DNA from: a bacterium
Lineage (GTDB): Bacteria; Actinomycetota; Acidimicrobiia; Spongiisociales; Spongiisociaceae
DNA: 51,513 nt
Assembly (NCBI GenBank): GCA_028821265.1
Contig: JAPPGU010000025.1
Coordinates: 1-51,513 of the forward strand
Direction of reading: 5' to 3'
In this document: positions 43,162 through 48,438 of the stretch, piece after piece
How positions within the stretch are numbered: the first letter of the stretch is position 1
Layout of the letters: every line of letters begins with the position of its first letter
The notes under the pieces: model-generated
Databases searched by the model: none
Seen by the model: only the letters and a program-made list of their open reading frames with translations
What the model was told of the DNA's origin: nothing
Program-made: the position numbers and the translations under genes

Positions 43162-43293
43162 CCCGTTGGGATGGCCGCGCCGGCCGGGCGCCAGACCAGC
43201 CGGGACACCCCGGCCAGGTTCGCTCTGCATCGTGCCAGACTCCTGCCCTGGGCGGAATTGTCCGGCCGGAAGAGCCGTGGAAGGAGGTGAGAC

Positions 43294-44337
43294 ATGTCCG
43301 AGATACGACTTACGTCCTTCTCGCCGGGTGGTGGCTGAGCGTCCAAGCTCGGCGCTGACGAGCTGGCGCAGGTCCTGCGCCCTCTCATGACTCACCTCGC
43401 TACCTCACACCCCGACCTCCTGGTGGGAGCTGCCACCTCGGACGATGGGGGAGTATTCCGCCTGGACGACGACCGCGCACTGGTCCAGACGGTGGACTTC
43501 TTCACCCCGATCGTGGATGAGCCCTACGACTGGGGAAGGATCGCGGCCGCCAACGCCCTGTCGGACATCTACGCGATGGGCGGGCGGCCGCTTACGGCCC
43601 TCCAGCTGGTGGGATGGCCCCGATCCGCGCTGCCGCTCGATGCATTGAGCGAGGTCATGGCCGGAGGGGCTGACGTGATGGCCACCGCCGGGGCCACGAT
43701 CACGGGTGGGCACTCGATAGACAACGAGACACCCGTGTACGGGTTCGCGGTTACCGGAACGGTGTCTCCGGCCCGGGTCGTGACCAACGGCACCGCCCGA
43801 CCGGGCGAGTCGATGGTGCTGACCAAACCCCTCGGAACGGGTGTCGCTGCTTCCGCCCTCAAGGCCGGGTTGGCCGATCCTGCCCTGCGGGACGCGGCGG
43901 TGGAGACCATGGTGGCGCTCAACGGGCCGGCCTCCACGGTGATGGTGGAGGCGGGCGTGACGTGTGCTACCGATGTAACGGGCTACGGGCTGGCAGGTCA
44001 CCTCCGGGAAATAGTGACCGCATCCGGGGTGTCGGCGCGCCTGGACATGGACGCGGTTCCGGTACTCGACGGGATTGCCGACCTGATCGAAGCGGGGGTC
44101 TATCCGGGCGGTAGCCGGCGCAACCTGGAGTCGGCGCGAACTTCCCTGAGGACGTCTCGGAGCAGTACGGAGCAGAAGATCCTGGCGGATGCTCAGACCA
44201 GCGGGGGCTTGCTGATGGCGGTTCCCCCGGACCGGACGGGACGGGTGCTGGAGGACCTCCGGTCGGTTGCGCCGGCGGCTACCGTGATAGGTGAGTTCAC
44301 GGCGGCCGGCGGAGAACCGGTGATCGAGGTGGTATGA
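43294..44337 (+). CDS. selD: Selenide, water dikinase, selenocysteine-containing (in-frame UGA at codon 15)
   Basis: SelD makes selenophosphate from selenide and ATP, the selenium donor for selenocysteine. The stop-free frame starts at 43387 and lacks the catalytic N-terminus. Reading from ATG 43294, which has a perfect AAGGAGGTGA upstream, gives MSEIRLTSFSPGGG-U-ASKLGADELAQVLRPL, with UGA (43336-43338) as codon 15. U15 and K18 align with the catalytic Cys17 and Lys20 of E. coli SelD, and the frame continues into the SelD body (VQTVDFFTPIVDEPYDWGRI, GGHSIDNETPVYG, DVTGYGLAGHL, AQTSGGLL). Total 347 residues. Overlaps the next gene by ATGA. Confidence 0.93.
43365..43381 (+). promoter_or_regulatory. 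Bacterial SECIS-like hairpin in selD
   Basis: GGCGCA (43365-43370), loop GGTCC, TGCGCC (43376-43381): a perfect 6-bp stem whose loop starts 32 bases after the UGA. The loop closely resembles the GCAGGUCUGC apex of the E. coli fdhF SECIS, including the GGU that SelB binds. GAG (43360-43362) and CTC (43382-43384) can extend the stem past a 2-base bulge. Confidence 0.75.
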
Positions 44338-44783
44338 CCGACGTGGCCAGTGGTCCGGAGCGGCTCCGGATGATCGCTTCCTCCCTGTCGATCGGGGGCC
44401 TGCAGCGCCACATCTTCCTGTGCGCCCAGCAAGCCAATCCCCGCTGCTCGACCTACGAGGAGAGCCTCCAGGCGTGGTTGCAGCTGAAGCGGACCGCCAA
44501 GGCGCTCGACATCGCCTCGGCGCCCCCGGCATGGCAGGGGGATCTCTCCCGCCCGGTAACACCGGTGGAGCATGGCAACGGTACGATCCTGCGGTCCAAG
44601 GTGGACTGCCTGCGGGTTTGCGAGCAGGGACCGATAGCGGTGGTGTACCCGGACGGGGTGTGGTACCACTCGGTGGCGGGCGAGGTACTCGACCGGATCA
44701 TCCATGAGCATCTGGTGGAGGGCCGTACGGTCGACGAATACGTATTCGCAGTGGACGACCTGTCGGCCCCCTCCAGAGCGTGA
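44334..44783 (+). CDS. Thioredoxin-like [2Fe-2S] ferredoxin-domain protein
   Basis: A 149-residue protein. It reads RHIFLCAQQANPRC near the N-terminus and KVDCLRVCEQGPIAVVYPDG later, giving Cys30, Cys38, Cys92 and Cys96. This C-x7-C plus C-x3-C pattern with a VVYPxGxWY strand is the thioredoxin-like [2Fe-2S] ferredoxin fold also found in NuoE-type subunits. It presumably carries electrons in the cytosol. It overlaps selD by ATGA and may be linked to selenium or sulfur reduction, which is inference. Its TGA stop overlaps the next ATG. Confidence 0.82.
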   Translation: MTDVASGPERLRMIASSLSIGGLQRHIFLCAQQANPRCSTYEESLQAWLQLKRTAKALDIASAPPAWQGDLSRPVTPVEHGNGTILRSKVDCLRVCEQGPIAVVYPDGVWYHSVAGEVLDRIIHEHLVEGRTVDEYVFAVDDLSAPSRA

Positions 44784-46135
44784 TGCGTCTCCGTGTAGCC
44801 GTCCCGGTCATCGCAGTGGCCTTGGCGGTCTCGGGCTGCTCCCAGCGTTCGCCGGAGCTTCCACCGGTCGATGTCCCCGCCGAGGTCGTTCCCGACCTCG
44901 TCAACCCGGCGGATGTGGACAAGATGTTCCCCCTCGGTGGTGGCTGCCTGCTGGCGGTTGGAAGCGGCGTGCGGGTGCTGGACGTGGTGGACGGTACGGG
45001 TGCCTCCGCTGCGCTCCGGCCGGGCGACATCATGACCTCGGTCGATGGCGTGCCGGTTAGCTCCCGGGAGATTCTGTTACAGGTGCTGGAGGGTCGGCGG
45101 GTAGGGGAGTTGGTGGTTGTGGAAGGAACTCGCGTCGGTGCCCCGTTCAGCGTTTCGATTGCCCTCTCCCCGGTTCCCGGTCAGGCGGGACGGGCCATCC
45201 TCGGCGTAATCACCGAGACCAGGCTGGAGGCTGTCCGGCCGGCGAGCCTTCCCGATGCGGTCATCGACGACCAGATGGCCCGCCCGGTGATCGTGGATGG
45301 CGGGATCTACCGGTACGTGCCCCTGGGCGCGGTCTGGACACCCTATCCGGGGAATCCCGCCGAGCATATGGCGGAGTTGGGATCCGACATCTACGCGGTG
45401 GCAGCCGAGGAGCCTCTCTCCCTTGTTCGGGTGGGCTACGAGGAGCCGATTGCCATCGATCCCGGGCCGGTCGTCTACGAGACGCCGGTAGGCCCCCTCG
45501 AGGTGGTGGCCTCCGGATTCGACGAGGTGGTCGGATCGGTGGGAGGGTTGTTGCTCATAGCCGGTGAGGCGGAGGCCGGGCCCGGAGATACCGCCGCGGC
45601 GGTCCACGGGGTCGATCCCGTAAAGGCGACGGTGGAGTGGATCCGCCCCCTGGGTCTGTCGGATGCCGGGAATACGCTGGCGGCCACCGATGCCTACCGG
45701 AGCCCCTCCGGAGATCGTGCGCTGGTTGCGCTCGTCGAGCATGACGTCGAGGGTGGCGGATCGGAGCTGTTCAACTACTACCTGGTGGACGAGGAGGGCG
45801 AGGGGACGGTGGGTCCTCCCGGCATCGATCAGTTCTTCCCCACCGACGGCGTGACCGGCTGGTACGACGAAGACTCGCTCATCTACCTGGTAGATATTGA
45901 GGTTCCGCAGATAGTCCTGTGGTCGTTGGGCACCGGCGAGCACACCCTGCTCAGGTCATATACGGCTGAGGAGGCCTTCAGCCTGCGTGCGGCGTTTCCG
46001 GTAGGGGACGGAGAGCACATCGTGGAGGTGCGCGACGGCGAGGTGTTTCTGGTTGACGTGAACCGCCCCGAACTCACCCGCCTGATTTCCCGGGGATGCC
46101 GGCACGTGCCCGTAGAAGGCATGAACCTGGGCTAG
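44783..46135 (+). CDS. PDZ-domain lipoprotein with probable beta-propeller
   Basis: A 450-residue exported lipoprotein. Signal peptide ends in VSGC (Cys19). A PDZ-like domain follows (RVLDVVDGTGASAALRPGDI, then TSVDGVPVSSREILLQVLEG, about residues 65-110). The rest is beta-rich with repeated Gly/Asp turns, compatible with a WD40/TolB-like propeller (weak inference). No protease triad is seen, so it is likely a binding or scaffold protein. ATG at 44783 shares one base with the upstream stop. Its stop codon shares CTAG (46132-46135) with the stop of the convergent FtsH-like gene. Confidence 0.75.
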   Translation: MRLRVAVPVIAVALAVSGCSQRSPELPPVDVPAEVVPDLVNPADVDKMFPLGGGCLLAVGSGVRVLDVVDGTGASAALRPGDIMTSVDGVPVSSREILLQVLEGRRVGELVVVEGTRVGAPFSVSIALSPVPGQAGRAILGVITETRLEAVRPASLPDAVIDDQMARPVIVDGGIYRYVPLGAVWTPYPGNPAEHMAELGSDIYAVAAEEPLSLVRVGYEEPIAIDPGPVVYETPVGPLEVVASGFDEVVGSVGGLLLIAGEAEAGPGDTAAAVHGVDPVKATVEWIRPLGLSDAGNTLAATDAYRSPSGDRALVALVEHDVEGGGSELFNYYLVDEEGEGTVGPPGIDQFFPTDGVTGWYDEDSLIYLVDIEVPQIVLWSLGTGEHTLLRSYTAEEAFSLRAAFPVGDGEHIVEVRDGEVFLVDVNRPELTRLISRGCRHVPVEGMNLG

Positions 46136-48438
46136 TCGGTCCCCGGGCTAATCGGTTTCTCAGCGCCAACGGCCTCGGGCGCCGGGGCTGTGACCGGGAG
46201 GCCTCCGTTGCCTTCCACGTCCTCCGGAGCGGCCAGACCGAGGGCCGAGCGATGATCCTCCACGCTCACCGCCGCGAACCCGACGGGATTCTCCTTGGTT
46301 ATCACCCCTGCTTCGAGGCCGATGATCTCGGCAACTTCGTCACCCGAGATGGTCTTCTTCTCCTGGAGCCGGACTGCCACGTTGAACACCGCCGCCTTGT
46401 GCTCTTCGAGCATCTCGTAGACCTCGTCGTAGAGCCGCTGAAGCCTCCGCTCCACCTGGGAGGCCATGGTCTTGGCTATCTCGCCACTCGGGTCGGGCGG
46501 CTGGTCGAGTGCATGGCGGGGCATACCGGCGCTCGAAGCGATATTGTCGCCCATTCCCCAGACCCCGATCATGCGGCTCTCGATAGTGGTTGCGTTCCGG
46601 AGATCACCCCCTACCCCCATCGAGTTGTCGCCCTTGAAGAACATGCGCTCTCCGGCCAGGCTGGCCAGCGACACCTTTATGTCCACCTCCAACTCGGTCT
46701 TCCATTGGACGAACCGGTCCTCGAGGGAGATGTATGAGACGAAGCCGCCGACATCACCGCGGCGCTCGATGGTGGCGACATCGACGTTGGCGTGGGACTT
46801 GAGAAGGTGGGCGGCCACCGCGTGGCTGGACTCGTGGATGGCGACGGCGAACTCTTCGCGCTCCACGTACTCGAAACCTTCGGCCGGGCCCATTTCCTTG
46901 AGGGTCTTGGCCTTCCAGATGTCATCCCACCCGATGATGTCGCGGTCAGCTCGCTGGGCCAGGATGAGGGCCTCATTGACCAGGTCCTTGATCTTGGCGC
47001 CGGAGTAGTACGGGGTCTTGGCAGCGAGCTCCTCGATCTGTTCGTCGGTGATGTCGTGGCTGACCTTGGCCAGATAGCCCTCGAACGTGCGAGCACGGCC
47101 CTCCTTGGTCGGGAATCCGACCTTGTAGATCCGGTCGATCCGTCCCGGACGTAGCAGCGCCGGGTCGAGCACGCTGGGCAGGTTGGTGGCCATCATGATG
47201 AAGATGCGGTACTTGGGTGGAGGCTTGGGCTTCATGCCGAGCATCTTGCGGGCCTTGTTGGTGATCCCGCGGGGCTTCTTCAGCCCGGATATCTCGGTCA
47301 GGAGGGCTTGGAGGGTACCCATACCGCCGCCTCCGCCGCCCATCATCATTACTCGGTTGATCCAAGTTCCGGGAAGCTCTTCCGGTTCGCCGGAAGCCGG
47401 GCTCGTCCGGGCCCCGTCCCCTTCGATGATGCTGAGGGACTGCGGGCTCAGGTACGCGGAAGCGTTGCAACCCATCCCGGCGCTGAGCGGCGTGGCGGGC
47501 TGTGGCGGTCCTCCTCCCTGCGCGAGGGCGCCCCGGTTACCGAGGGCGTCGGCCTCGTCGAAGAAGACCACCACGCCCCCATGGCGCAGGGCCAGCTTGC
47601 GGAGCTTCCGGAACAGACCCTTCACCTTCAGGATGCCGACCCCCATGAACATGGCTTGGAAGGCGCCGGGATCGACGAAGACGAAGGGGAGGCCGACCTC
47701 ACCCGAGGTGGCCTCGGCGATGAGCGTCTTCCCTGTTCCCGGGGGGCCCCACAGCAGGATTCCGCCGGGCACATAGCCACCCTTGGCCTCGATCTCATCC
47801 GGCTTCTCGAGGAACCCGACGTTCTCCCGGACCAACTCGAGCACATGGTCCTGACCCCAGACATCGGAGTACCGGGTCTCTATCTCTTCCGGCATGATCG
47901 TGTCGACGCCCCCTCGGGACAGGAACCAGAAGAGGGCGGCGAATTGCATGATCAGGAAGAGGGGATAGAACAGGAACATGATGAACTGCTGCAGGTTGCG
48001 GGCCAGGATGCGGGGGAGTTGGATCACTGCCTCGATCGGTCCGTTCACGTCGGCCACGAAGTAGTCCACCACCGAGCCCAGGATCAGCAGGAAGATCAGG
48101 ATCCGGACGTAGCGGCCCAGACGGAATCGGGTCCATGGCTTGAAGCGCCGATGGGCCTGGCGTTCCATCCCCCCGAAGAACCCTTGCGCCCAGAACCGGT
48201 TGTATCTACCCCATTTCTCGGACACGAAGTAGTGGATCTGGCGGAGGATTTCGAGCGGCAGGGCGATCATCAGCACCCGACCGAATGTCTCGTTCCAAGT
48301 GTCCTGGAGCGCTTGGCCGAAGGTGGTGAACGGGGCGGTGACCTTGGCGCTGATCAGGATTCCGAGGAAGAACAGGATCAGCACCACGAACTTCATCCGG
48401 TCCCACGTCGGGGAGCGCCTGCGGACGTCTGTCTTCAT
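46132..48438 (-). CDS. Atypical FtsH-like AAA+ membrane metalloprotease
   Basis: A 768-residue protein. Four transmembrane helices lie in the first ~185 residues (FtsH has two). The AAA domain has Walker A GPPGTGKT (Lys237), Walker B FFDEAD (Asp294, Glu295) and the arginine-finger region RPGRIDR near residue 430. The Walker B to Arg distance is about 135 residues against ~60 in FtsH: a Gly/Pro-rich insert of roughly 75 residues lies between. The M41 zinc site is HESSH (535-539, instead of HEAGH) with a candidate third ligand Asp612 (GGDLRNAT). An active membrane-protein-degrading protease is expected. A lipoprotein gene precedes it by 10 bases. Confidence 0.88.
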   Translation of the reverse strand: MKTDVRRRSPTWDRMKFVVLILFFLGILISAKVTAPFTTFGQALQDTWNETFGRVLMIALPLEILRQIHYFVSEKWGRYNRFWAQGFFGGMERQAHRRFKPWTRFRLGRYVRILIFLLILGSVVDYFVADVNGPIEAVIQLPRILARNLQQFIMFLFYPLFLIMQFAALFWFLSRGGVDTIMPEEIETRYSDVWGQDHVLELVRENVGFLEKPDEIEAKGGYVPGGILLWGPPGTGKTLIAEATSGEVGLPFVFVDPGAFQAMFMGVGILKVKGLFRKLRKLALRHGGVVVFFDEADALGNRGALAQGGGPPQPATPLSAGMGCNASAYLSPQSLSIIEGDGARTSPASGEPEELPGTWINRVMMMGGGGGGMGTLQALLTEISGLKKPRGITNKARKMLGMKPKPPPKYRIFIMMATNLPSVLDPALLRPGRIDRIYKVGFPTKEGRARTFEGYLAKVSHDITDEQIEELAAKTPYYSGAKIKDLVNEALILAQRADRDIIGWDDIWKAKTLKEMGPAEGFEYVEREEFAVAIHESSHAVAAHLLKSHANVDVATIERRGDVGGFVSYISLEDRFVQWKTELEVDIKVSLASLAGERMFFKGDNSMGVGGDLRNATTIESRMIGVWGMGDNIASSAGMPRHALDQPPDPSGEIAKTMASQVERRLQRLYDEVYEMLEEHKAAVFNVAVRLQEKKTISGDEVAEIIGLEAGVITKENPVGFAAVSVEDHRSALGLAAPEDVEGNGGLPVTAPAPEAVGAEKPISPGTD

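Follow-up and report, generated by a model that had tools for sequence, protein, structure and literature searches.

Selenophosphate synthetase (SelD) with selenocysteine (Sec) at its active site has been known for a long time and is a standard selenoprotein family. According to the counts given in PMC2398784 the Global Ocean Sampling data hold 357 Sec-SelD proteins, and Table 4 of PMC1794560 lists the SelD of Rubrobacter xylanophilus as a selenoprotein lost in sister organisms. The original prediction for the locus described here took Sec-SelD to be known in other lineages. Changes from Sec to Cys in SelD are reported in the passages of Zhang et al. (2006, PMC1794560) that deal with the family, and changes from Cys to Sec are not reported there. 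SelA and SelB co-occur in most sponge symbiont bins according to PMC5649159, which was the only paper in the literature searched, with most subscription papers outside it, to pair Acidimicrobiia or Acidimicrobiales with selenocysteine. Within the same literature (again with most subscription papers outside it) none paired Actinomarina with selenocysteine, and the selenium passages of the UBA5794 paper PMC12008989, which mentions both Actinomarina and selenium, concern selenate reduction.

Here we describe a selD gene with an in-frame UGA from a member of the Acidimicrobiia, found in a stretch of 51,513 nucleotides (the window). The features of the locus are as follows.

43281-43290, + strand: ribosome-binding site AAGGAGGTGA, assigned from its sequence and found in 8 of 8 distinct upstream stretches (relatives of at least 84% identity, window included)
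43294-44337, + strand: selD, selenophosphate synthetase, with Sec predicted at residue 15; 347 residues and stop
43336-43338, + strand: in-frame UGA, putatively read as selenocysteine, aligned with Cys17 of E. coli SelD
43345-43347, + strand: Lys18 codon, facing Lys20 of the E. coli enzyme
43348-43362, + strand: small upstream hairpin (CUCG...CGAG) with a covarying core, probably a spacer portion of the SECIS region
43365-43381, + strand: SECIS hairpin GGCGCAGGUCCUGCGCC, 7 bp, loop at 43372-43374, 33 nt past the UGA, -11.3 kcal/mol
43372-43373, + strand: GU of the apical loop, the presumed SelB contact, identical in all 42 distinct stretches of the UGA form
43387-43389, + strand: ATG taken by a stop-free gene call; this start is not conserved
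44334-44783, + strand: thioredoxin-like [2Fe-2S] ferredoxin-type protein, overlapping selD by ATGA

The reading frame is as originally predicted, with the ribosome-binding site followed by an ATG at 43294, 14 sense codons (MSEIRLTSFSPGGG), a TGA, and a frame that stays open until the TGA stop ending at 44337. A mechanical listing of stop-free open reading frames gives 43387-44337 (316 aa), which, as had also been foreseen, is a SelD without its catalytic residue. With the TGA of codon 15 passed as Cys for profile searches, the product (348 codons, stop included) scored 386.4 bits against the NCBIfam equivalog model for selD (TIGR00476, cut-off 125) and also matched Pfam AIRS and AIRS_C. Residues 5-314 cover profile positions 1-310 of 311 in TIGR00476, and since the match begins at profile position 1, the residues that precede the UGA belong to the SelD family. 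Cys17 is well established as the catalytic residue of E. coli SelD. When the window protein is aligned with this enzyme (3u0o), its residue 15 faces Cys17 and its Lys18 faces Lys20, so that both the placement of the UGA and the Lys three codons further on stand as predicted, and the window SelD has the catalytic Cys/Sec position and the Lys of the N-terminal glycine-rich loop.

A scan of genome contigs with selD returned 13 loci (7 from Acidimicrobiia, 2 from Acidobacteria, 2 labelled 'bacterium' and 2 alphaproteobacterial). Eleven of these matches, at 99 to 48% identity, cover the N-terminus (L014-L024), and all 11 have TGA at the position of codon 15 with protein similarity on both sides; the alphaproteobacterial loci, L025 and L026, match at 23% identity but not over the N-terminus, and they were excluded from every SelD count. 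In a class-wide search, selD was matched in 206 of 296 genomes of Acidimicrobiia, and among the 150 matches listed a hand count gave one TGA inside in 109 and none in 41. The suggestion that this gene is notable in an actinobacterial background therefore has to be softened, as it is common in the class and Rubrobacter has it too. As a side observation, genomes G232 and G288 have two selD matches apiece, with one TGA inside each of the four.

The codon at the active-site position was read in 82 SelD records, window included, and was TGA in 51 and Cys in 31; the codon finder accepted TGA or Cys only, and 82 of 82 records fitted. Thirty of the loci fetched (L029-L058) were the best-scoring of the class search and 40 (L068-L107) were hand-picked for both forms and several families. 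After removal of five exact duplicates there were 77 distinct sequences, 46 with UGA and 31 with Cys, a split that is no frequency estimate given that the loci were hand-picked or best-scoring. The in-frame UGA is thus kept or replaced by Cys among homologues, the pattern expected of a selenoprotein. The 14 codons that lead up to the UGA encode a single peptide, with silent differences only, across 8 distinct 60-base stretches from relatives of at least 84% identity, which is the outcome of the comparison that had been proposed for this region; L069, from the same genus at 70% identity, has an altered peptide start, MTERP, before LTSFSPGGG. All 77 sequences were used in a codon alignment and a quick tree, from which the site's own columns had been removed. 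The tree has five changes between UGA and Cys, at least four of them forced by the starred (well supported) branches, and the direction of these switches cannot be read from the change counts.

The source genome (2.6 Mb in 87 contigs, 84.6% complete) holds selA, selB, selC and selD, the set by which the Sec-decoding trait is recognised. The selA gene (C8:27352-28677, 422.6 bits) adjoins selB (C8:28689-30458), which was matched in two pieces, the main part with 282.7 bits and 315.8 with its neighbour, and tRNA-Sec lies at C9:70237-70327 (77 bits, cut-off 47; anticodon tca by ARAGORN). The full Sec system implied by the original prediction is therefore present, and neither of the findings named in advance as arguing against it, a lack of selB or selC or unrelated upstream sequence in relatives, was seen in the source genome. 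Selenouridine use in this genome was considered and rejected, the SelU model (TIGR03167) having no match at E up to 1e-8 in any of 26 genomes, among them the source genome at its 84.6% completeness. In the wider class, tRNA-Sec scored above the cut-off in 33 of 40 chosen genomes, including genomes with UGA-type and with Cys-type SelD. Six of the chosen genomes had no selD match, and of these five gave no tRNA-Sec and one (G009) a doubtful match of 71 nt; two genomes with Cys-SelD (G247 and G020) gave no tRNA-Sec, though selA was found in both. Genome G290, of the same genus as the source and 96% complete, has a UGA-type selD; selA was not matched there (E up to 1e-10) and neither was selB (E up to 1e-50), which our guess would put down to an assembly gap. 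G097 has tRNA-Sec with neither selA nor selB matched (selB at E up to 1e-50). selA was found in G058 and, as a fragment, in G280, with no selB match in either at E up to 1e-50.

The bSECIS limits, in the form set out in the relevant part of PMC13188914, are a loop of 3-9 nt, a stem of 4-16 bp, a G in the first two loop positions, a distance of 16-37 nt past the UGA and an MFE of -7.5 or lower. The window hairpin lies inside all of these, with a 3-nt loop that opens with G, a stem of 7 bp, a spacing of 33 nt and an MFE of -11.3 kcal/mol, and the limits are passed by 43 of 51 UGA-form records and by 3 of 31 Cys-form records (L053, L091 and L093). The eight UGA-form records that fail the strict scan are L057, L107 and six of a low-GC group, f12, and in the f12 relative L097 the main hairpin is missing from the fold. 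From the UGA onwards, 54 bases align without gaps in the 42 distinct UGA-form and 31 Cys-form stretches of the RNA alignments, and a two-hairpin structure, picked by eye on the same sequences that were later scored, was set against shuffles. In the UGA forms its pairing holds in 90.7% of 546 cells compared with 81.6% in shuffles, and the covariation score is 0.232 compared with 0.092, neither value being reached in 500 shuffles; pairs changed on both sides number 7 against 4.8, a mild excess equalled in 25 of 500 shuffles. In the upstream hairpin, columns 17 and 23 do not pair in 24 of 42 UGA forms. RNAalifold, unprompted, recovered the cores of both hairpins in the UGA forms and neither in the Cys forms, and the minimum-energy fold of the window sequence has the main hairpin without the small upstream one.

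That nucleotide conservation past the UGA reflects protein constraint alone, with the SelB signal elsewhere, is an explanation we consider very improbable. It could account for the unexceptional stability of the 54-nt window RNA folded by itself (z -1.53, with 16 of 200 shuffles folding equally well) and for the failure of the low-GC f12 records in the strict hairpin scan, but it does not sit well with alignment columns 16-24, 31-45, 33-43 and 36-40, where the UGA forms show several standard pair types and keep the pair despite changes on both sides, nor with the Cys forms, whose pairing is at shuffle level (40.2% against 40.5%). Silent-site identity also argues against it, being raised in the UGA forms and not in the Cys forms: in the 15-codon window past the UGA it is 0.657 in the former, above 299 of 299 later windows, and 0.565 in the latter, where 89 of 311 windows are at least as high. 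Silent-site conservation past the UGA is unexceptional when the comparison is confined to the nine closest sequences (40 of 342 windows as high).

Two further explanations would do without recoding by the Sec system, and we give each of them hardly any weight. If the UGA were a true stop, through a sequencing error or gene decay, translation might restart at 43387 and yield a SelD-like product that lacks its catalytic residue, and a stop-free frame starting with that ATG does exist. Of the 51 UGA-form records, however, only three have this ATG, namely the window itself and its near-identical relatives L014 and L074, which speaks against a restart, and 46 distinct sequences, drawn from many genomes, share the TGA at this codon, which speaks against a pseudogene or an error; the purely silent variation in the codons before the UGA of close relatives also runs counter to a true stop. 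If instead UGA were reassigned, or translated by read-through as a different amino acid such as Trp, with the Sec system uninvolved, the open frame on either side would be accommodated equally well; yet UGA is the normal stop of 9 of 23 long open reading frames taken as genes in the window, selD included, on which ground we reject reassignment, and this explanation also has to contend with the selA, selB and tRNA-Sec of the source genome and with Cys as the other residue at this site across the 82 records.

The UGA in selD is thus very probably read as selenocysteine, as we infer from the frame, homology, UGA conservation, RNA covariation and Sec genes. Translation of selD would begin at 43294, and the hairpin at 43365-43381 would recruit SelB with Sec-tRNA-Sec to the UGA, where Sec would be inserted in place of termination. 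The predicted Sec would sit in the mobile N-terminal selenium-binding loop of an enzyme that is expected to convert selenide and ATP to selenophosphate, from which SelA would make Sec-tRNA-Sec. We regard it as almost certain that these parts belong together, in a SelD that should have a catalytic Sec in its mobile loop, a UGA recoded via SelB and the hairpin, and selenophosphate as its product. Since SelD feeds SelA and would itself need Sec, it would be both a source and a product of the Sec pathway.

Other UGA-containing genes, for which the original prediction had advised a search, were found in the source genome as an FdhA and three peroxiredoxin/thioredoxin-like candidates, making five selenoprotein candidates with SelD from three families searched. 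FdhA, on C58, has a single TGA in the motif SNNIDSCNRTUHAPSVAGL and a hairpin inside the SECIS limits (-8.9). Three of nine AhpC/TSA (PF00578) matches in this genome hold a TGA: L127 on C81 (TRGU), L128 on C82 (UGC) and L129 on C32 (UETC), with TGA-containing counterparts of C81 and C82 in L130 and L131 and of C32 in L132; families named TxxU Prx, UGC Prx-like and UxxC appear among those given in PMC2398784. Only the C82 candidate satisfies the SECIS energy limit (-10.0). C32 (-7.1) and C81 (-4.1) miss it, so these two rest on position, motif and relatives. On C58 we also observed that the UGA-type formate dehydrogenase is split (L067:6320-11117), the catalytic chain (Molybdopterin and Molydop_binding) being without an Fe4S4 domain, which forms the C-terminal end of a separate NuoG-like iron-sulfur protein of 329 aa; the gene for the latter sits behind one with 2Fe-2S_thioredx and Complex1_51K domains, and formate-tetrahydrofolate ligase lies immediately upstream. 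Many other FdhA matches in the class likewise start near model position 50, with one TGA each.

The f12 genomes, which we guess from their size and GC to be Ca. Actinomarina, are about 1 Mb in size with GC contents of 32.4 and 32.5% in two stretches. A UGA-type selD is present in the six f12 records read (L095-L100), tRNA-Sec in 12 of 12 genomes tested and selA in 9 of 10, where two of the matches contain a single TAA. Class-wide selB scores cannot by themselves separate SelB from EF-Tu in f12; by eye, a SelB-like gene lies beside selA in all three stretches read (L122-L124), one of them cut by a contig end. No FdhA was found in ten f12 genomes (best match 90.7 bits), the AhpC/TSA matches of nine held no TGA, and SelU was absent from the nine searched for it. 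SelD was by eye the sole recoded-looking gene in the selAB and selD neighbourhoods read, after many antisense and out-of-frame matches from the recoded-gene scan had likewise been set aside by eye. It is conceivable, but in our judgement rather unlikely, that f12, lacking SelU, keeps a complete Sec system with SelD as its sole selenoprotein, or nearly so, in which case the pathway would largely make its own selenium-activating enzyme; the search covered few families, and SelW-, AhpD-, PrdB- and UGSC-type proteins and others lie outside it. That SelD by itself may sustain Sec use has been suggested before, in passages of PMC1794560 and PMC13188914. If true of f12, what would be new is SelD-sustained Sec use without SelU in so small a genome.

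Directly after selD, the [2Fe-2S] ferredoxin-type protein is a possible electron or selenium partner of SelD. Flanks were available for 20 UGA-form loci: in 10 of these (L014-L021, L023 and L042) a homologue comes immediately after selD, in 3 (L034, L038 and L057) it sits at another place in the flank, and in 7 none was found. Of the 23 Cys-form loci with flanks, none has it. Further along the window, 46132-48438 encodes an FtsH-like protein of 768 aa in which two AAA stretches are combined with an M41 peptidase domain; its score of 271.7 bits is far under the cut-off of 600 bits of the FtsH equivalog model.

On a practical level, gene calls that treat UGA as a stop truncate SelD at its active site and break the four further candidates, so that selenium use is likely to be under-annotated in these organisms. 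The spread of Sec-SelD through these uncultured actinobacteria seems to be little described. As far as our searches show, two things are new. One is how widely Sec-SelD is spread among Acidimicrobiia, where Sec and Cys have switched at least four times; the other is that low-GC members of about 1 Mb have a complete Sec system, with no other selenoprotein in the few families tested. With at least four switches between the UGA and Cys forms of one enzyme, the class offers a good natural test of Sec retention and loss, and one in which an RNA signal and a protein sequence evolve jointly.

The window gene resembles the Sec-containing SelD proteins of TIGR00476 in matching over the full length, in having a UGA in place of the catalytic Cys codon, in its conserved Lys and in its short intragenic SECIS hairpin, and differs in its host lineage, the Acidimicrobiia. 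Its motif is GGGUASK; a Ser lies two residues past the Sec position in the window and in the other records read from the same genus, whereas most other UGA-form relatives have Cys there. The Cys-type SelD proteins of Acidimicrobiia (for example L029-L033 and L088-L094) are alike at 50-59% identity and in the motif (A/G)CKL after the catalytic residue, but have a Cys codon in place of the UGA and an RNA pairing no better than that of shuffles. Two codons encode A-Q in most UGA forms, whereas they encode R-T in most Cys forms and other residues in the remaining Cys forms. Within the source genome, the fdhA hairpin is nearer its UGA than that of selD, with a spacing of 18 nt and the loop GGUCU. 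The SECIS element of E. coli fdhF is an apical hairpin of the GCAGGUYUGC type with GU in the loop. The window selD hairpin is of the same form, again with GU in its loop; in contrast to fdhF, the loop lies farther from the UGA, at 33 nt, and the hairpin is in another frame (codons A-Q-V-L), with an extra small hairpin upstream.
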